Origin: a virus
IMG/VR virus record: IMGVR_UViG_3300029813_000033
Coordinates: 1 to 24,535 of that record
DNA length: 24,535 bases
Reading direction: 5' to 3' (one strand)
Positions 1 through 10,062 of this stretch are shown piece by piece. The notes under the pieces are model-generated. The model was given only the letters and a program-made list of their open reading frames with translations, did not search any database and had not been told where the DNA came from. The position numbers were made by a program, and so were the translations under genes. Position 1 is the stretch's first letter. Each line of letters opens with the position of its first letter.

Positions 1-12
1 CCATTGGTATAG

Positions 13-247
13 CAGGTTTTGTTGAAAATTGGCTCAATAATGCAAATGATATATGGGTATAGCATAGCATTAGGCTATAAGGCCCTCTTTTCCATCTATT
101 AGTTATATATATAATTTATATATATATATGTTATATGTTTATATAACTGTCTATTATAGCTTACAAATCTAAGAGGGCCTGACAGTGTGATGCTATGCTA
201 CAGGGGCGTATCATCGTCGATATTGGCTCAATATTCCACAAAACCTG
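13..247. repeat. Long imperfect palindrome (about 235 bp)
   Basis: Matching arms share one centre at about position 130. Positions 13-22 (CAGGTTTTGT) pair with 238-247, 28-31 with 229-232, 35-39 with 221-225, 46-51 with 209-214, 60-70 (TAGCATAGCAT) with 190-200 as a perfect 11-mer, and 80-89 (AGGCCCTCTT) with 171-180 as a perfect 10-mer. The centre, about 100-150, is a TA-rich stretch. Many of the remaining opposed bases are G-T, with fewer A-C. It lies downstream of the leftward micro-genes. It could be an origin, a boundary or terminator structure, a MITE-like element, or a structured RNA; the sequence alone does not decide. Confidence 0.75.
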
Positions 248-300
248 TCGCAATGTGTATCGGGTAATACTACTCTCATCAAACCACTATGTCTATATAT

Positions 301-447
301 TCATTTCTTGTATTTCCTACTATAATAATCTTTAATAATTCTATCTCTAATATGTTTATGCTTATATGCGTCCAGGTCGTCTTGCCTCCAAGCTGGTCTA
401 TCTACGCTACTCTTTTTATCTATCTTGAGCTTTTTCATTTTGGACAT
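301..447 (-). CDS. Small highly charged hypothetical protein (48 aa)
   Basis: This is a minus-strand reading frame from ATG at 447 (second possible ATG at 438) to TGA at 303-301. It gives a 48-residue protein starting MSKMKKLKIDKK, rich in Lys, Arg, Asp and Tyr and without a hydrophobic segment. The ATG at 438 overlaps the TGA of the preceding 27-codon frame as ATGA, which suggests coupled translation. An AGAAG-like site precedes ATG 447 closely. The frame lies in the same direction as the 128-aa gene at 641-1027, so a leftward operon of small genes is likely. It is too short for family assignment. The plus-strand frame covering the same bases encodes an implausibly hydrophobic peptide and looks like its shadow. 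Confidence 0.5.
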   Translation of the reverse strand: MSKMKKLKIDKKSSVDRPAWRQDDLDAYKHKHIRDRIIKDYYSRKYKK

Positions 448-518
448 ATCTTCTTACTGTTCTTAATTTCGTGATATCTCATTAAGACTCCGCAATCAAC
501 ACAGGGAGTATCAATCAT
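435..518 (-). CDS. Micro-protein with half a zinc-finger pattern (27 aa)
   Basis: This is a minus-strand frame from ATG 518-516 to TGA 437-435. A GAAGGT Shine-Dalgarno-like site sits about 7 nt upstream. The product starts MIDTPCVDCG and ends ICPK, so it has a CxxC knuckle and then the first part of a second knuckle, CPK, where the expected second Cys position is the stop codon. It may be a genuine truncated micro-protein, a zinc ribbon decayed by a Cys-to-stop change, or the leader half of a product joined to the next frame. The last codon AAA lies in an AAAA run just before the stop, and the next gene's ATG overlaps that stop in the -1 frame. Confidence 0.4.
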   Translation of the reverse strand: MIDTPCVDCGVLMRYHEIKNSKKICPK

Positions 519-578
519 CTTTTATACCTTCATTGATGTGATTGGTTCAACTTGTCTACTATTAGACAGACAATAATT

Positions 579-620
579 GCATAGGCAGCCAGCCGATTGA
601 ATAATGCTGACTACCTATGC
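579..620 (-). terminator. Stem-loop after the 128-aa leftward gene
   Basis: Positions 579-593 and 606-620 form a 15-bp stem around a 12-nt loop. The two non-Watson-Crick pairs (586/613 and 589/610) are C-A on the plus strand and therefore G-U on the minus-strand RNA, so the stem is continuous only in the leftward transcript. It lies about 20 nt past the stop codon of the gene at 641-1027. No clear U-run follows, so attenuation, RNA stabilisation or processing is as likely as intrinsic termination. Confidence 0.5.
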
Positions 621-640
621 TTGGTTGAGAAGGAGAAGTA

Positions 641-1027
641 TCATACTATTTCCTTTTTCCACATCTCTACTATCTCAGCTCTAATTGCCACTGATGGATT
701 ATTGGTCTTATGGCAATCCTCAATCTGTTCGGACGTCAGCTTGTTGTATAGTCTATTGTAGTCAGCTTTCGGCATATTCTTAGCCGTCAATCGTCTTCTA
801 ATCGCCGCTTGCATCTCAATAGCTTTCGCTCCAACATACAGATTCATCGAATGCACTTCTGTCTCAACGCCTTTATCTATGAATTCTTGCAATTCTTCTA
901 ACGTCGTCGGATAAGGCACAAGACATTCACCAGCGGCCTTCTTACCATTCTCAATTCTGGCAAGTCTTTTCTGATAGTATAGACCATCCTTCTCAACCAG
1001 CTCAATCTTAGAGCTGGCCACTGTCAT
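641..1027 (-). CDS. Hypothetical phage protein, helical (128 aa)
   Basis: Read on the minus strand, an AAAGGAGGTGA Shine-Dalgarno sequence (1043-1033) stands 8 nt before ATG 1027-1025, so I choose the start MTVASSKIEL. An in-frame GTG at 1036 lies inside the Shine-Dalgarno sequence itself. The product is soluble and mixed-charge, with an N-terminal segment that looks beta-rich followed by helices (around LEELQEFIDKG and KAIEMQAAIRRRLTA). I see no DNA-binding helix-turn-helix, membrane segment or catalytic motif, and I do not recognise the family. It runs opposite to the late genes and shares the 1037-1874 control region with them, so it may be an early, regulatory or accessory protein. That role is inference. 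Confidence 0.8.
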   Translation of the reverse strand: MTVASSKIELVEKDGLYYQKRLARIENGKKAAGECLVPYPTTLEELQEFIDKGVETEVHSMNLYVGAKAIEMQAAIRRRLTAKNMPKADYNRLYNKLTSEQIEDCHKTNNPSVAIRAEIVEMWKKEIV

Positions 1028-1047
1028 AGGTTTCACCTCCTTTCAAC

Positions 1048-1092
1048 AGATTGTTAAAGAATAGATTGTTAAAGAATAGATTGTTAAAGAAC
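1048..1092. repeat. Three tandem copies of a 15-bp repeat
   Basis: The unit AGATTGTTAAAGAAT occurs at 1048-1062, 1063-1077 and 1078-1092, the last with one changed base. The array begins just upstream of the Shine-Dalgarno sequence of the leftward gene, so it lies in that gene's leader or promoter. It could be an operator array, iterons or a translation-tuning leader. Confidence 0.85.
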
Positions 1093-1239
1093 AGATGTTG
1101 TTCAGTACAGACGTTGTTTAGCAGATATTGTTACTTCAATGAACACATAATAATAAGCAATATCTGTGCCAATCTACCAAAAATCTGTAAAATAATAAAA
1201 ATTGTTGTAAGTCGTGTGTTGATAAGGACTTAGGACAAT

Positions 1240-1259
1240 CTAACATTTGTAATTGTTAG
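1240..1259. promoter_or_regulatory. CTAACA/TGTTAG inverted repeat
   Basis: CTAACA at 1240-1245 faces TGTTAG at 1254-1259 across 8 nt. The same half-site recurs in the palindromes at 1418-1431, 1464-1482 and 1529-1556, suggesting a shared repressor or activator site. Confidence 0.4.
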
Positions 1260-1278
1260 GTAGATATATAGCAAACCG

Positions 1279-1313
1279 GTCAAGATGGCAGGCTGGCTGT
1301 CAAGATGGCAGGC
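1279..1313. repeat. Direct repeat GTCAAGATGGCAGGC, two copies
   Basis: Identical 15-mers stand at 1279-1293 and 1299-1313, a period of 20 bp (about two helical turns). That spacing suits two protein molecules binding the same DNA face. No function is assignable. Confidence 0.75.
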
Positions 1314-1417
1314 GATTATTTATTCAATACTCAACAATATCTGTCATATTGGCATATTCGGGTTAGATATTCATAAAACATTTATTGAAGACAGCATCAG
1401 TTTAGTGATTGGTGTTT

Positions 1418-1431
1418 GTTAGAATTCTAAC
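1418..1431. promoter_or_regulatory. Perfect 14-bp palindrome GTTAGAATTCTAAC
   Basis: This uninterrupted palindrome uses the same GTTAG/CTAAC half-sites as its neighbours. It is a plausible dimeric operator or structure element. Confidence 0.45.
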
Positions 1432-1463
1432 TAACATTCATTGGGCAGCTGCTAATAATGTTA

Positions 1464-1482
1464 TAACTATCGAACATAGTTA
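1464..1482. promoter_or_regulatory. Inverted repeat TAACTAT / ATAGTTA
   Basis: Seven-bp arms (1464-1470 and 1476-1482) flank 5 nt. The half-site is shared with the palindrome at 1529-1556. Confidence 0.4.
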
Positions 1483-1528
1483 GTCGGGCTAGCATTGTTC
1501 ATCTCAGCTAACACTATTCAATAGACTG

Positions 1529-1556
1529 AACATAGTTATCTGGCACTAACTATGTT
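1529..1556. promoter_or_regulatory. Inverted repeat AACATAGTTA / TAACTATGTT
   Basis: Perfect 10-bp arms (1529-1538 and 1547-1556) flank an 8-nt loop. The right arm repeats sequence found near 1471-1482 in inverted form. It may be an operator or a hairpin, and no U-run follows it. Confidence 0.45.
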
Positions 1557-1660
1557 AGCAATATAAATATACCCACTATATCGAAAATGAGAAACCCCCC
1601 ATAGGCCTTCGCTGGGTGTAGTGGAATCGTAAAATACTTTTATGTATTTTTGCTATAAAA

Positions 1661-1690
1661 CAGACAATCATTGTCCAGAATATTTATAAT
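1661..1690 (+). promoter_or_regulatory. Promoter candidate overlapped by a 13-bp palindrome
   Basis: TATAAT at 1685-1690 is a consensus -10 box. CAGACA at 1661-1666 matches four of six -35 positions with an 18-nt spacer. The palindrome GACAATCATTGTC (1663-1675) overlaps the -35 box and could be an operator. This is sequence pattern only, in a very AT-rich stretch. Confidence 0.4.
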
Positions 1691-1728
1691 GTTTGGTAAA
1701 TTTTTAACAAAATTTTTAATAATTTAGA

Positions 1729-1757
1729 TTGACTTTCTTAATAATTTCTGCTATATT
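1729..1757 (+). promoter_or_regulatory. Sigma70-like promoter for the late operon
   Basis: TTGACT (1729-1734) and TATATT (1752-1757) each match five of six consensus bases and are separated by 17 nt, so transcription would start near 1764. It points rightward at terS, with about 110 nt of leader that contains the three hairpin repeats. It is the best promoter match I found in the window. Confidence 0.55.
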
Positions 1758-1780
1758 CATTGATAGACTGTTTGTTTATT

Positions 1781-1851
1781 ATTGAATGAGACTTATTCAT
1801 CTTATTGAATAAAGACTTATTCATCTTATTGAATAAAGACTTATTCATCAT
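1781..1851 (+). repeat. Three tandem hairpin-forming repeats before terS
   Basis: Three units (1781-1803, 1804-1827, 1828-1851; 23, 24 and 24 bp) share the pattern ATTGAATAAAGACTTATTCA. The second and third contain the inverted repeat TGAATAA-AGAC-TTATTCA; the first differs by one base loss and one change. They end 23 bp before the terS start. Arrays near terS in other phages serve as small-terminase binding sites (pac or cosB). Operator or leader-RNA roles are alternatives. Confidence 0.8.
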
Positions 1852-1874
1852 CTTCGGATTATGAAAATGATAAA

Positions 1875-2345
1875 ATGACTTTTCAATTAGACAAACTCAA
1901 TCCGAGACATTTTAAGATATTAGACTTATGTATTAGAGGATTGTCAGCGGGAGAGATAGCGGAAGAACTATCTATGCATAAGAATCAAATATCAGCAGTT
2001 ATTAACAGTCCCAACTTTCAGCATCAACTATCTATTAGAAGAGCCAGTTATGAAGAGAAAGCAGATGCTCAACAGATACATGCTGAAGATGAAGCGACTA
2101 GAGTTCTTAAAGAATCGGCGGTAGAAGCGGCCCAAAAACTTAAAACCCATTTAACTAGTGAAGACGATACTGTAAGTTTGCGTTCAGCTACTGCTATTCT
2201 TGATAGAACTGGTCATGCTAAGAGAGAGCCTACTGGAGGAGTGGCTGTTCAGATAAACATTAGCTCTGAAGATGCTAAGATTATTGCGGAGACTATAGAT
2301 TTAGAGAAGAGTGCGGATGATAGAACTAGACCAAAAGACAATTGA
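1875..2345 (+). CDS. terS: Terminase small subunit (TerS)
   Basis: TerS recognises the packaging site and recruits the large terminase to begin DNA packaging. Residues 10-45 form a helix-turn-helix region (around LCIRGLSAGEIAEELSMHKN). It is followed by a charged helical oligomerisation segment and a polar C-terminal tail. The length (156 aa) is typical. The gene directly precedes terL and overlaps it by about 29 bp, suggesting coupled translation. The start ATG has no evident Shine-Dalgarno sequence; instead a five-codon frame MKMIK (1861-1875) ends with TGA overlapping the ATG as ATGA. No other start fits, because an in-frame stop lies at 1830. Family identity rests on fold pattern and position. 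Confidence 0.8.
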   Translation: MTFQLDKLNPRHFKILDLCIRGLSAGEIAEELSMHKNQISAVINSPNFQHQLSIRRASYEEKADAQQIHAEDEATRVLKESAVEAAQKLKTHLTSEDDTVSLRSATAILDRTGHAKREPTGGVAVQINISSEDAKIIAETIDLEKSADDRTRPKDN

Positions 2346-3918
2346 GACTTTGAAGGAGAAGGGTAAGAAGTCGATGTTCTTCTTGGCGAGAGCTGTTCTT
2401 GGCTTTCACGAGTTGGATGTAGATATTCATCTGCCTATTTGCAAGAAGCTTGAGATGAGAGAGCGATATCCTAAGTTGGTTATTCAGCTCCCTCGAGATT
2501 GGTTTAAGAGTACATTAGGCTCGATCGTCTATCCAATTTGGAGAGCTATCAATAATCCTGACGTTAGAATCGTAATAGTCCAAAATACATTTAGCAATGC
2601 TTGTAGAAAGCTGCAAGCGATAAAGCAGATTTTTGAGAAGAACAAGCTTTTTAGAGCTTTATATCCAGAAATACTACCAACCGACTGTGGGCCCTGGACG
2701 AGAGAATGTTTGACAGTTAACAGAAATGCTGCTCATCCCGAAGGTACTTTTGAGGGCGCAGGAGTCGGTACGGCTTTGACGTCTCGACACTATGATGACA
2801 TAATTGAAGATGATACTGTTGCTCCTGAGAAGGATTCATTAAAAGGGATTATTCAGCAACCGACCCAGTTGGAAATTGAGAAGTCTATTGGATGGCATAG
2901 AATCGCTTATCCTCTTCAGGTTCATCCGACTAAATCGAGGAGGATAGTTATTGGGACTAGATGGGCGGTAGCTGACTTGATAGGCTGGATTTTGAATAAT
3001 GAACCTGAGAATGATGGAGGGTATAATCTTGTATCTCGCTCGGCCATAGAAGACGGCAAACCTGTATGGGATAGGTTTGGAGAAGAAGCTCTATCATCGC
3101 TTGAGAAAGTATTAGGCCCTTATATGTTTAAGACTCTCTTCTTAAATCTACCTACTGAAGCTATCAATCAGGTATTTAGGAGAAGTTGGATAAGTTATTA
3201 TTCAAACATTCCTAAGACTAAAACCAAGTATGGAGTGGCGTCATTAATAACTTGCACATCAGTCGACCCAGCAGCTTCTGATACTGAAGGGTCTTCTGAC
3301 CCCGACTATAATATAATTCTTACAACTACGTTGAACGTAACAACTGGGCATGTTTATGTTAATGAGTATAGTCGGGCTAGAATGAATCCAGGTGAGTTGA
3401 TTGCGGGAATCTTTGAGCATCATAGAAAGTACAAGCCTCTCGTTGTAAAGATAGAGAGTATTGCATATCAGAGGACTATAAAGTATTGGATAATGAAAAG
3501 GCAAAGACAACTGAATGAGAGATTCTACGTTGAAGAGATTAAAAGTCATGGGAGGACTAGTAAGGAAGATAGAATTAGAGCCCTACAACCGTTTTTCTCT
3601 GACGGACTTATTCATATAACTACACATATGGATGAGCTGGAAAGAGAGATGCTCTCTTTCCCGAGAGGAGCACACGATGATATACTTGATGCACTATCTA
3701 TGCAGGTAGGTTTCTGGACGGATGAAGCTCAGGATTATCAGAAGGAAGTGAGTGATAATCTTATAGTTAATCCGTTTTCTGGGGCTGCAATCTTAGATGA
3801 ACTACACGGTAGAGCACGTAAACTTTACGGTTATCCTGCTGATATAGGACATTTGAAAGAAAGAGCTCTTGATGAACTGCCAAGAGACGACCTGATTTAT
3901 GACGGAGTACATCGGTGA
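2317..3918 (+). CDS. terL: Terminase large subunit (TerL), ATPase and nuclease
   Basis: TerL is the motor that pumps DNA into the prohead and cuts the concatemer. The N-terminal ATPase shows a Walker A variant (PRDWFKST, about residues 59-66), a Walker B (YDDIIEDD, about 159-166) and the downstream IGTRW motif (about 212-216). The C-terminal RNase H-like nuclease has its acidic residues in SVDPA, KIES and HDDILDAL. The length of 533 aa suits the family. I choose ATG 2317 because GAGAAG lies 7 nt upstream; an in-frame GTG at 2311 is too close to that site. The gene overlaps terS at its start, and its stop overlaps the next gene's GTG as GTGA. Confidence 0.93.
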   Translation: MIELDQKTIETLKEKGKKSMFFLARAVLGFHELDVDIHLPICKKLEMRERYPKLVIQLPRDWFKSTLGSIVYPIWRAINNPDVRIVIVQNTFSNACRKLQAIKQIFEKNKLFRALYPEILPTDCGPWTRECLTVNRNAAHPEGTFEGAGVGTALTSRHYDDIIEDDTVAPEKDSLKGIIQQPTQLEIEKSIGWHRIAYPLQVHPTKSRRIVIGTRWAVADLIGWILNNEPENDGGYNLVSRSAIEDGKPVWDRFGEEALSSLEKVLGPYMFKTLFLNLPTEAINQVFRRSWISYYSNIPKTKTKYGVASLITCTSVDPAASDTEGSSDPDYNIILTTTLNVTTGHVYVNEYSRARMNPGELIAGIFEHHRKYKPLVVKIESIAYQRTIKYWIMKRQRQLNERFYVEEIKSHGRTSKEDRIRALQPFFSDGLIHITTHMDELEREMLSFPRGAHDDILDALSMQVGFWTDEAQDYQKEVSDNLIVNPFSGAAILDELHGRARKLYGYPADIGHLKERALDELPRDDLIYDGVHR

Positions 3919-4157
3919 GCGCGGTGGTAAGAAAGTTATACCGAGACGCTGGGTTAACTCCACCAAAAGGTAAGGGAATACACACGCTAGCATTTCATAA
4001 ATGTGTGATAAGTATTAAGAAGAAGATAAAGACAGGCAAAATAGCTAAGACATATGTTGATAAGAAGACTGGTAAGAAGATGAAAACGAATCCTTACAAG
4101 ATTTGCATGGAGAGACTTGGGATTGAGAAAGCTGTTCATAAATCGCATAGGAGATAG
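3915..4157 (+). CDS. Small lysine-rich protein between terL and portal (80 aa)
   Basis: The start is GTG 3915, overlapping the terL stop, with GGAG about 9 nt upstream. The product is strongly basic, with many Lys and Arg and few acidic residues. Recognisable stretches are GKGIHTLAFHKCV, then a Lys-rich linker, then NPYKICMERLG. I recall similar short proteins (HT..FHKCV ... NPY..C...LG) beside terL or portal genes in uncultured phages, but I know no function. The charge suggests nucleic-acid or acidic-protein binding. It is tightly coupled to terL and followed by portal after 3 nt, so a packaging or head-assembly accessory role is plausible. Confidence 0.75.
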   Translation: MSAVVRKLYRDAGLTPPKGKGIHTLAFHKCVISIKKKIKTGKIAKTYVDKKTGKKMKTNPYKICMERLGIEKAVHKSHRR

Positions 4158-4160
4158 ATA

Positions 4161-5855
4161 ATGGCTAATCCTACTGTTGAAGATTGGCTAACTGAAATTG
4201 ATAACGGACTTGAGTATAGAGAGAAATTCGGAAGAGAGTCTTCTTGGACTAAGCTTGAGAATTCTTATCTCAACGATCCCCAATCAGATGCAGCGATAGG
4301 GCCTAACTTAATATATTCAATGGGAGATAGTTTAATGAGCTCCCTAACTGTTCCTGACCCAGAGTTTGTAGTTACGCCTGAGCATCCATCTGGAGTTGAC
4401 AGAGCTCCTATAGTTGAGGCTGTTGATAACTGGTTAGTCAGAAAGTTAAAAATAAAGAGAGTAGTTGATGCAGCGGCTCTACATATGTATCTCTATGCGG
4501 GAGGATTCATTAAGATAGGCTATGATAGTGAGTTTGGATGGTCGCCTTATTATGATTTAGGAACGCAAGATAGTCCAATAGGAGCGACTTTGACGCAGTT
4601 TGATAAGAAAGGTAAGCGGATTGAGTATAAGGATACTATACCTGGAATGCCTTGGATAGCAGCTGTGCCTCCTCATGATATAGTATTTCCTTGGGGAACA
4701 ATATTCATAGAGGACGCTCCCTGGTTTGCTCATCGGATTATAAGAGAAACAGAGCAGTTGAAGAAAGATCCTAAATATATCAACACTAATAGACTACAGC
4801 CTCAGATATCAATGGAAGACTTTATGGCGTCTTACTGTAAAGTTATGGGAACTAAGAAGAGGCCTAGCTATAAAAGCACCGGGCACTATTTTGCCAATAA
4901 ACAGCCTAAGTTTAGTGAGCTATGGGAAATTCATGATAGAATGACTGGAATGGTATTTGTAGTGTCTAGAGATTATGATAAGTATTTGAGAAGTAGTATA
5001 GACGCAATGCAGGTCTGCGGATTGCCATTAGTAGGAGGCAGCTTTGTTGCTCATCCTAGGTCTATTTGGACTACTCCATTAGCATTTTACTTAGGGCAAA
5101 TCCAGAGAGACCAGTTTGATATATCTAAGCAACAGGCGAAGCAGAGAAGAATAAGTAATTTGAAGTTCATCATGCAGAAGAACACTATGACTGAAGCTGA
5201 ACTTACGAGACTGATTAGTGGAGACGTAGGAGCTGTAGGGATAGCTGATACTAATCGACCACTATCAGATGTCCTTACAACAGTTCCAACTGGCAACTTT
5301 CTCGACTTCATTTTATTGAATAATCAAACAAGAGGCGATGCGAGAGAGATGATTGGGTATAGTAGAAACCAGATGGGCGAGTTTGACACATCTTCTCGTA
5401 GAACAGCAAGAGAAGCCACTTTTGTAGAATCCGGTTCACAAAGAAGAACAAGTAGGAGAGCAGGAGTTATTGTAGAGATGTATATTGATCTTATCACTAA
5501 ACTTAATCAAGTCTGTTTTAGCTTTTGGAGAAGGCCAAGATTTGCGACAGTTGAAGGAAAGTGGGTTCAGTTTACTGGGGATGAACTTAGAGGCGACTAT
5601 CTTTATGATGTATCGCTTAGTACGAAAAGAAGTCTGAGTAGAGCGCAGAGAAAAGTAGAGGCAATGATGATGTTGCTCCAGTTTGCTCAAATTCCAGGAG
5701 TTGATTTGCCTAAACTTTATCAGTATGCGATAGATGCATCGAGCGACCCTCACTTTGAGACTTTGTTAGCTCCAGGAGCTAGAGGCGGATGGAAGGGAGC
5801 TCCTACTGCTCAAGGAGGATTGCCCACTATTCCGAGCACTAAGACGGAGAAATAG
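4161..5855 (+). CDS. Portal protein
   Basis: The portal forms the ring at one head vertex through which DNA enters and leaves and on which TerL docks. The 564-aa size, the position directly after terL, and the sequence (an N-terminal helical segment with NLIYSMGDSLMSSL, a central beta-rich region with PPHDIVFPWG, then a long helical region with ARE and QRR motifs) fit podovirus-type portals. An AGGAG site precedes ATG 4161. The stop is one base before the next gene's ATG. Identification comes from context and overall pattern; there is no short diagnostic motif. Confidence 0.82.
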   Translation: MANPTVEDWLTEIDNGLEYREKFGRESSWTKLENSYLNDPQSDAAIGPNLIYSMGDSLMSSLTVPDPEFVVTPEHPSGVDRAPIVEAVDNWLVRKLKIKRVVDAAALHMYLYAGGFIKIGYDSEFGWSPYYDLGTQDSPIGATLTQFDKKGKRIEYKDTIPGMPWIAAVPPHDIVFPWGTIFIEDAPWFAHRIIRETEQLKKDPKYINTNRLQPQISMEDFMASYCKVMGTKKRPSYKSTGHYFANKQPKFSELWEIHDRMTGMVFVVSRDYDKYLRSSIDAMQVCGLPLVGGSFVAHPRSIWTTPLAFYLGQIQRDQFDISKQQAKQRRISNLKFIMQKNTMTEAELTRLISGDVGAVGIADTNRPLSDVLTTVPTGNFLDFILLNNQTRGDAREMIGYSRNQMGEFDTSSRRTAREATFVESGSQRRTSRRAGVIVEMYIDLITKLNQVCFSFWRRPRFATVEGKWVQFTGDELRGDYLYDVSLSTKRSLSRAQRKVEAMMMLLQFAQIPGVDLPKLYQYAIDASSDPHFETLLAPGARGGWKGAPTAQGGLPTIPSTKTEK

Positions 5856-8377: not shown

Positions 8378-8914
8378 ATGCTAAAAGTACTGTTCAAAAC
8401 TAAGCTGACCGATGTCAGAGATTCCGACGTTGAAGGCGTTGGAATATTGCGGTACGAAGATGATGGAAGAATATACAGATGGGAAAAGAACAGGAATGCT
8501 ACAGCATTTACGGCCAAGCAGCCTGTTTGCTATGACGCAGGCAATGTTGGAACATCTGCATTGTTTAAGTCAGTAAACTCTCCTGTAGCCGCAGACTTGA
8601 TGATAGCTGCTGGTATTGCCATGACGGCTGTTGGTAAGTCTGGAGGTACTACAGGTTGTTATGGCTGGGTGCAGGTGGAAGGCTACTGTCAGGATGCTCT
8701 AGTCGCAACGCCAAACACTGTAGCTGGTGGTATTACTGCAGCTATTGTGGTTGGAAGTTCGTTGACTTGCGTTACCGGCAAGACTGCTCTTGCTCATGAG
8801 TCTATACAATCAACTGCTCCTGTTTATTCTAGCCACTTTATTGCTCTTGAGACTCTTGCTGCCGCTACGCCTTCAGTCGCTACAGCGAAGGACGTTATGA
8901 TTAGATGTCTGTAG
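8378..8914 (+). CDS. Putative capsid decoration or head structural protein (178 aa)
   Basis: GTGAGG upstream gives the ribosome binding site. The product begins with a polar beta segment (VLFKTKLTDVRDSD) and continues as a small-residue, Ala/Gly/Thr/Val-rich chain with YGWVQVEGYCQDAL, typical of beta-sandwich head decoration or cement proteins. It sits directly after the capsid gene, where such proteins are usually encoded. It contains five Cys, some of which might form disulfides or pack in the interior. The stop overlaps the start of the next gene by 10 bp. Decoration is inferred from position and composition. Confidence 0.6.
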   Translation: MLKVLFKTKLTDVRDSDVEGVGILRYEDDGRIYRWEKNRNATAFTAKQPVCYDAGNVGTSALFKSVNSPVAADLMIAAGIAMTAVGKSGGTTGCYGWVQVEGYCQDALVATPNTVAGGITAAIVVGSSLTCVTGKTALAHESIQSTAPVYSSHFIALETLAAATPSVATAKDVMIRCL

Positions 8915-10062
8915 AAGAGAAGATAAAGATTGGTGTTGCTGTTCACACTTATGGTCATATAGCGCCGGATGTATACGCTAATCATTTAGGAATGTTCTGC
9001 CGTTGGGCTAAGCGTTATGCTGCATTGTTCATCCACGTTGATGGAGTGAAGACTGCGGAAGCGCGGAATTTACTAGTAGAGAGAGCGATTGAAGAAGGAT
9101 GTACTCATATATTCTTCCTCGACGCCGACCATCTAGTCGATGAGAACATATTGCCCTGCTTACTCGGCAATACAATAGCGACCGTTGTTAGTGGCCTTAT
9201 TGTTAAAAGAGACGGTAAAGACAGTCAAGTCGGATTTGTTAAGAAGAGCGACGGTTTTTACTACAATGTTGCTCTTCCTACAGACGGCCTGTCCTACGCA
9301 GTTGATGCATGCGCCTTCGGATGCACTTTGATTGATTTAAGTGTATTTAAGGATATCGAGAAGCCTTACTTCAAAGATGTTTTATATAGAGATTCTGAAG
9401 GCGCTTTGCAACAGAGGAGAAGTGATATGGAGTTTTGTAGAGAGGTTAAAGCACTTGGAAAGGATATTAGAATTGACACGAGAGTTAGAGTAGGGCATAT
9501 TGGTAAGCAGTCTGTTTACTATCCGAAAGAGGTGCAATATCAGTTACCTGTTTATAAATTAGCTGCTGAATTAGTTAAAGAAATGGACAATCCGTCAGTT
9601 GTTGATTTTGGATGCGGGTCTGGTAGAAAGCTGGTAGAAATCCTTGCGCCATTATGTCAGGTTGCTGTAGGGATAGACAGGAAAGACCTCATTGAAGGAT
9701 GTGAGAGGTTATATCCGGATTCTAATATTAAGTGGGGAGCAGCGGATTTAGAAGAGCCAATCGAGACTTGCGGCAAGTTTGATTTGGTCATCTGCGCTGA
9801 TGTTCTTGAACATTTGGACAATCCAAGTGTATTAACTTCTACCATTCTAGACCACTTGACTGATGATGGGTATGCAGTGATATCGACTCCGGATGTTGAT
9901 ACTATTCCAGAAGGAGTTAAAATCAATCCTGCTCATAAGCAGTTCTGGAATGAGAAGCAGTTTGTTGCTTTTCTATCCAATAATGGATTGAAGATTGTTG
10001 ATGTGAAGAGAGAGAAGGAGATTAGTGAATATATTTCTATAATAGCTATTTGTGGGAGGTAA
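8905..10062 (+). CDS. Glycosyltransferase-methyltransferase fusion (385 aa)
   Basis: Residues about 6-205 are a GT-A glycosyltransferase of the GT2-like type: ARNLLVERAIEEG leads into the metal- and sugar-nucleotide-binding DAD (73-75, in FFLDADH), with a possible catalytic or metal His at 198 (VGHIGK). Residues about 228-385 are a class I SAM methyltransferase: motif I VDFGCGSG (233-240), acidic residue D258, D281 in the GAADLEE segment, and CADVLEHLDNP (297-307). It would transfer a sugar and perhaps methylate it or its acceptor in the cytoplasm. It overlaps the upstream gene by 10 bp and lies inside the virion operon, so targets could be virion proteins, tail sugars or host surface glycans. 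The target is unknown. Confidence 0.85.
   Translation: MSVEEKIKIGVAVHTYGHIAPDVYANHLGMFCRWAKRYAALFIHVDGVKTAEARNLLVERAIEEGCTHIFFLDADHLVDENILPCLLGNTIATVVSGLIVKRDGKDSQVGFVKKSDGFYYNVALPTDGLSYAVDACAFGCTLIDLSVFKDIEKPYFKDVLYRDSEGALQQRRSDMEFCREVKALGKDIRIDTRVRVGHIGKQSVYYPKEVQYQLPVYKLAAELVKEMDNPSVVDFGCGSGRKLVEILAPLCQVAVGIDRKDLIEGCERLYPDSNIKWGAADLEEPIETCGKFDLVICADVLEHLDNPSVLTSTILDHLTDDGYAVISTPDVDTIPEGVKINPAHKQFWNEKQFVAFLSNNGLKIVDVKREKEISEYISIIAICGR

Follow-up and report, generated by a model that had tools for sequence, protein, structure and literature searches.

Among the packaging systems described so far, those of the phages HK97, lambda and SPP1 offer useful precedents for the DNA that lies just upstream of a terminase small subunit gene (terS). 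For HK97, the minimal TerS site has been mapped to positions 15–29 bp past the cos cut and requires a G at position 21 and a 9-bp A-tract (PMC11331095), and the left end sequence of this phage contains the 15–29 bp stretch. Lambda has a bent, AT-rich segment that separates cosN from three TerS sites, and it needs a fixed spacing of cosN and cosB (PMC4856287). The terminase of SPP1 is reported to repress its own synthesis, and its pac overlaps the late promoters PL1/PL2 (PMC6316719). These statements, and the comparisons made below, draw on parts of the cited papers, as does our use of two further ones (PMC10810279, PMC6739421).

Genomic setting of terS

The window analysed here is the whole of virus record IMGVR_UViG_3300029813_000033 (24,535 bases), and its terminase genes are as follows.

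1875–2345, plus strand: terS, terminase small subunit with an N-terminal helix-turn-helix (phrog_2538, E 6.3e-7; predicted structure)
2311–3918, plus strand: terL, terminase large subunit (phrog_38, E 3.2e-71)

Downstream of terS and in the same direction come terL, an SU10-type portal (PF23899) and the major head protein, and on its 5' side about 840 bases hold no recognised gene, with one mechanical 60-aa frame inside. The window TerS had no match in Pfam. Its predicted model contains an N-terminal helix-turn-helix (mean pLDDT 86.7) and gave weak matches in a structure search (best E 0.12), among them 2ao9 and the TerS of E217 (7uxe).

Two other places in the window drew our attention. A long gene at 8905–10062 has a C-terminal methyltransferase domain (PF13489) and an N-terminal part similar to phrog_1574 (function unknown). 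At 61–205, where no gene is recognised, a long inverted repeat is visible by eye (tagcatagcat..ggccctctttt / aagagggcc..atgctatgcta), which is perhaps a bidirectional terminator or a junction.

A tandem array of dyads in the presumed terS leader

A preliminary description of the window had reported three tandem repeats of 23–24 bp just 5' of terS, and these were fully recovered by Tandem Repeats Finder (TRF) at 1779–1849 (period 24, 3.0 copies, 95% matches, consensus TTATTGAATAAAGACTTATTCATC).

1779–1801, plus strand: array unit 1, 23 bp, imperfect dyad TGAATGA-GAC-TTATTCA at 1783–1799 (TRF, sequence)
1802–1825, plus strand: array unit 2, 24 bp, perfect dyad at 1806–1823 (TRF, dyad search)
1826–1849, plus strand: array unit 3, 24 bp, identical to unit 2, perfect dyad at 1830–1847 (TRF, dyad search)
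1729–1757, plus strand: sigma70-like promoter TTGACT-17-TATATT with TG before the second hexamer (consensus match only)

The longest exact self-match at one offset is 37 nt (offset 24), against at most 12 nt in dinucleotide shuffles (200 of 1627–1874, 200 of 1036–1874 and 60 of the whole window); the array is confirmed as real, far beyond chance. The hairpin TGAATAA-AGAC-TTATTCA (7-4-7), which had been attributed to every unit, is present as a perfect 18-bp dyad in units 2 and 3, and is imperfect in unit 1, where one substitution and a one-base deletion leave the pairing retained through a G-U pair and a shorter loop. From the end of the array to the terS ATG at 1875 we measured 25 nt, and not the 23 bp first given.

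Perfect inverted repeats (7-nt arms, loop 3–8) number 6 in 1627–1874 (shuffle mean 0.6, maximum 5) and 38 in the whole window (shuffle mean 11, maximum 21), and given this window-wide excess hairpins as such are not peculiar to the spot occupied by the array. Dyads of the array type with up to two mismatches occur three times in the window against 0.3 expected, two of them being the perfect copies in the array and the third, with one mismatch, lying inside terL at 3187.

Since the promoter-like site is 5' of the array, the array falls in the presumed 5' leader of the terS mRNA, and the earlier placement in an mRNA leader holds to that extent. Sigma70-like sites number 24 in positions 1–4500, with a shuffle mean of 16.1.

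A GC-rich element conserved upstream of terS

Divergent relatives were gathered with profiles of TerL and of the head protein, and later with a TerS profile and a wider TerL profile. The DNA 5' of their terS genes contains a recurring GC-rich element and no array of the window's kind. In the relatives the element consists of AAACCCCCCA and, some 16 bases further on, GTAGTGG or GTAGTA. The window's copy shares its intergenic region with the array and precedes the array by about 155–190 bp.

1592–1624, plus strand: GC-rich element AAACCCCCCA-N16-GTAGTGG, proposed cos-type packaging signal (sequence conservation)
1416–1431, plus strand: palindrome TTGTTAGAATTCTAAC, 5' of the element (some relatives have similar palindromes 5' of theirs)

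TerS genes identified by profile in all loci formed 33 clusters, three of which had less than 190 nt of upstream DNA, leaving 30 testable. A fixed pattern found the element within 700 nt 5' of terS in 18 of these 30, and two loci with looser forms that escape the pattern (L024, L061) were counted with them, giving 20 carriers, among which L113/L027 is a weak member. The fixed pattern is absent from 12 of the 30 clusters, or 10 if L024 and L061 are counted, and the clusters without element are L142, L140, L151, L131, L029/L032, L031, L119, L028, L136 and L012. In controls run with the same pattern, which had been shaped on examples already seen, the 30 clusters gave no match to the reverse complement, one to the reversed pattern and none in the 700 nt downstream; their dinucleotide shuffles gave a mean of 1.3 matches (maximum 5), and DNA outside the terS-upstream stretches gave 5 in 554,286 strand-bases. 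The site is thus kept 5' of terS in a single orientation (18/30 versus 0/30 for the reverse complement), as in a cos of the HK97 type.

A simpler pattern matched 12 of 30 whole records (9 distinct phages, with three same-phage pairs), once each and always at the terS-upstream element, against one match for its reversed control; the 18 records that it did not match include carriers of forms it misses. When sequences were anchored on the C-run, ten-base identity reached 0.88 at the element, compared with about 0.28 in the flank 5' of it, figures that are partly circular because the carriers had been chosen by the C-run. TerS identity among the 20 carriers has a median of 35.6% (190 pairs) and exceeds 60% in 2 pairs. 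Upstream regions first seen after the motif had been described contained the element in L106, L108, L114 and L130, and lacked it in L142, L140, L136 and the distant L151. Between 126 and 566 bp separate the element from terS, depending on the carrier.

An element that is unique, apparently noncoding and conserved could also be a replication origin or some other regulatory site needed once per genome. We regard this as unlikely, because the element keeps its place upstream of terS and its single orientation across divergent phages, and because the A/T run that follows it (see below) recalls HK97 cos in the parts of that work available.

TTGTTAG-like palindromes were seen some 45–180 bp 5' of the element in several carriers (the window at 1416–1431, L030, L048, L050 and L054). 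The TerL match spanned about 800 extra bases in two loci (L002:1260-3671 and L143:6001-8343); in L002 the terL frame is open (803 aa) and the insert looks intein-like by eye.

Wider searches

Searched against IMG/VR by itself, the window TerS brought up no confirmed relative. A strict form of the element pattern matched 10 stretches in IMG/VR, two of them in the phage group of the window and both from one phage. For the other eight, the TerS profile was applied to six records (L095 and L096 were left out), with no match in four and weak matches in two (G034, E 2.4e-4; G035, E 9.1e-4). The TerL profile, run on one genome per GTDB species, yielded 56 pattern matches, none of them a relative, and hence no host or prophage. 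Among cultured phages with distant TerL or TerS, a scan for the C-run found no element-like site beside terS in H1, H15, H16 and H21; the record of the fifth, H11 (Pam1), starts at terS and contains no upstream DNA. We found no paper naming the element in the open-access library with the terms used. One of the four records in which no TerS of the family was found is the contig L088/L120; its element-like site, at L120:16927, has 163 nt of contig after it, too short to judge.

A/T-rich DNA after the element and genome ends

1626–1690, plus strand: A/T-rich stretch after the element, with an inverted repeat at 1631–1650; candidate TerS-contacted DNA (by analogy with HK97)

The first A/T run of 9 bp or more after the element has its start between +41 and +54, a range picked after inspection of the data, in 12 of the 20 carriers; 200 dinucleotide shuffles of these stretches averaged 3.85 and never exceeded 9. 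The window's own first such run starts at +87, outside the range of most carriers.

Terminal overlaps of 114 or 127 bases were present in 4 of the 9 records tested, which therefore look like circular assemblies; the element is present once in each of three of them, and the fourth, G010, has none by the pattern used. Circular assemblies fit a cos as well as a pac mechanism and do not discriminate between them. The end of contig L010/L038 coincides exactly with the first C of the element, and a near-identical contig continues past this point. We considered contig ends as possible genome ends and set the idea aside as weak, the other contig ends looking scattered by inspection.

A cos-type role for the element is suggested by its conservation, position and orientation, together with an A/T run that recalls the layout of HK97 cos. 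Against a packaging signal speak the 12 of 30 clusters without the pattern, including the circular G010, and the displaced A/T run of the window.

The array in relatives

Conservation of the repeats in relatives, which the preliminary description had proposed as a check on a packaging role, was not found. The perfect dyad is absent from all 151 loci other than the copies of the window itself (153 searched, many redundant or unrelated), and none of the 19 other element carriers has a 24-bp array between element and terS, the longest self-match at offsets 22–26 being 10 nt against 37 in the window. The exact array unit had no match in IMG/VR, in a search that may omit records near the window. 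From these comparisons of sequence, the array is best read as a feature peculiar to one lineage, located in the terS-terL leader and absent from the relatives compared.

The array might nonetheless anchor TerS as the three R sites of cosB do in lambda, in which case nicking would take place at the element (1592–1624). The arrangement of three sites between a GC-rich element and terS is that of lambda cosN, I2 and cosB as the available parts of the source present it (PMC4856287), the window TerS has a predicted helix-turn-helix, and several hairpins of a single type are scattered between element and terS in L024. In this last locus the hairpins lie between 1392 and 1958 (ATGTTGCTACGCAACAT and variants altered on both arms), and the interval holds 11 dispersed inverted repeats; L024 is alone among carriers in having many. 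The 19 other carriers without such an array and the variable distance from element to terS (lambda requires its cosN-cosB spacing to be fixed) argue that the array is not a family-wide cosB, and in the window it begins about 155 bp past the element, behind the promoter-like site. We consider an anchoring role quite improbable.

A recent and neutral tandem duplication, in intergenic DNA prone to repeats, would also explain an array whose units 2 and 3 are identical and which relatives lack. Other tandem repeats lie nearby at 1048–1096 and 1279–1313, and in several carriers unrelated tandem repeats flank the element on both sides; a repeat-prone region is accordingly a reasonable null for the array. 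Duplication alone accounts less readily for two identical 7-4-7 dyads and an in-register near-dyad just 3' of a promoter-like site. Dyads in register just downstream of a promoter are a typical operator arrangement. We judge the neutral origin somewhat unlikely. The repeat at 1048–1096 is itself a tandem array (15 bp x 3.3, AGATTGTTAAAGAAT) that adjoins a minus-strand gene at 641–1036.

RNA structure of the leader

The array could instead act as RNA: located close to the start of the terS-terL mRNA, its hairpins would alter stability, translation or elongation. Its location in the presumed leader would allow this, the array folds at -18.1 kcal/mol (z -4.15; leader z -3.04), and the pairing of unit 1 survives its sequence changes by way of the G-U pair and shorter loop. 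Any tandem dyad, however, outfolds its own shuffles, a single hairpin of the array is weak (-3.9 kcal/mol), and none of 4227 Rfam families matched the window at gathering score. Leader structure as a family trait was rejected, since z fell below -2 in only 2 of 20 leaders, those of the window (-2.81) and of L056 (-2.79), and not in the remaining 18. An RNA role is in our view rather unlikely. The weights that we attach to anchoring, duplication and RNA overlap with parts of the main reading given next, and are not meant to sum with it.

Proposed roles of the element and the array

Our main reading, to which we give a probability of roughly 0.6 from sequence comparison, combines a conserved cos-type packaging signal, the element, with a lineage-specific leader array that would not be a packaging signal and that, if functional, most likely modulates the terS-terL operon. 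The proposal that a packaging site lies at the array would then stand in part: the region upstream of terS probably does hold a packaging signal, and the conserved one is a different sequence, at 1592–1624. At this cos-type site the terminase would recognise and presumably cut concatemeric phage DNA, with TerS likely contacting the A/T-rich DNA just downstream. An 18-bp dyad in the presumed leader of the terS-terL operon would have been tandemly amplified to give the array. If functional, the array may be a triple operator to which a dimeric helix-turn-helix protein, possibly TerS, binds, or it may act through RNA hairpins. Against any function of the array are the weakness of the single hairpin and a period of 24 bp, which is not a whole number of helical turns.

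With SPP1 as precedent, autoregulation through the array is possible. A bolder version, speculative and with only a slim chance of being right, is that TerS would recognise two sites: the conserved element, for packaging, and the three-dyad array just behind the late promoter, which surplus TerS would occupy to switch off its own operon. Lineage-specific operators would thereby couple packaging to terminase supply.

The element is common to divergent uncultured phages that are related in their TerL, TerS and head protein; next to it the array is a lineage-specific curiosity. If the element is a cos site, circular metagenome assemblies from this group can be given a fixed genome start, and a packaging signal becomes available for testing without an isolate.

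Comparison with known packaging systems

With lambda cos (cosQ-cosN-cosB, with R3, R2 and R1) the window shares, as far as the parts of the source available describe it, the succession of a GC-rich element, AT-rich DNA, three repeated sites and then terS. It differs in the promoter-like site that separates element and array, in variable distances and in repeats that no relative was found to share; repeats at a kept cosN spacing, the mark of a cosB, are seen in none of the 19 other carriers.

PaP3 cos, a 20-base site bound by TerS (PMC7672466, in part), is likewise GC-rich cos DNA of a recognition system near the terminase genes. In SPP1, packaging region, promoter and terS start lie together as they do in the window. 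SPP1 differs in packaging by headful, and the available part of PMC6316719 contains no array of the window's kind; binding of the window TerS to its leader is putative.

There is a resemblance in layout to HK97 cos, although no sequence can be aligned, the A/T run of the window is displaced, the cut position in carriers is only proposed, and terS lies 50 bp from the HK97 end against 126–566 bp from the element in carriers. As far as the parts of the HK97 work available show, both have the site upstream of terS, and the A-tract of about 9 bp shortly after the HK97 cut may have a counterpart in the A/T run that follows the element in 12 of the 20 carriers. If the element is a cos site, an HK97-like cos layout would extend to phages whose packaging is unstudied.
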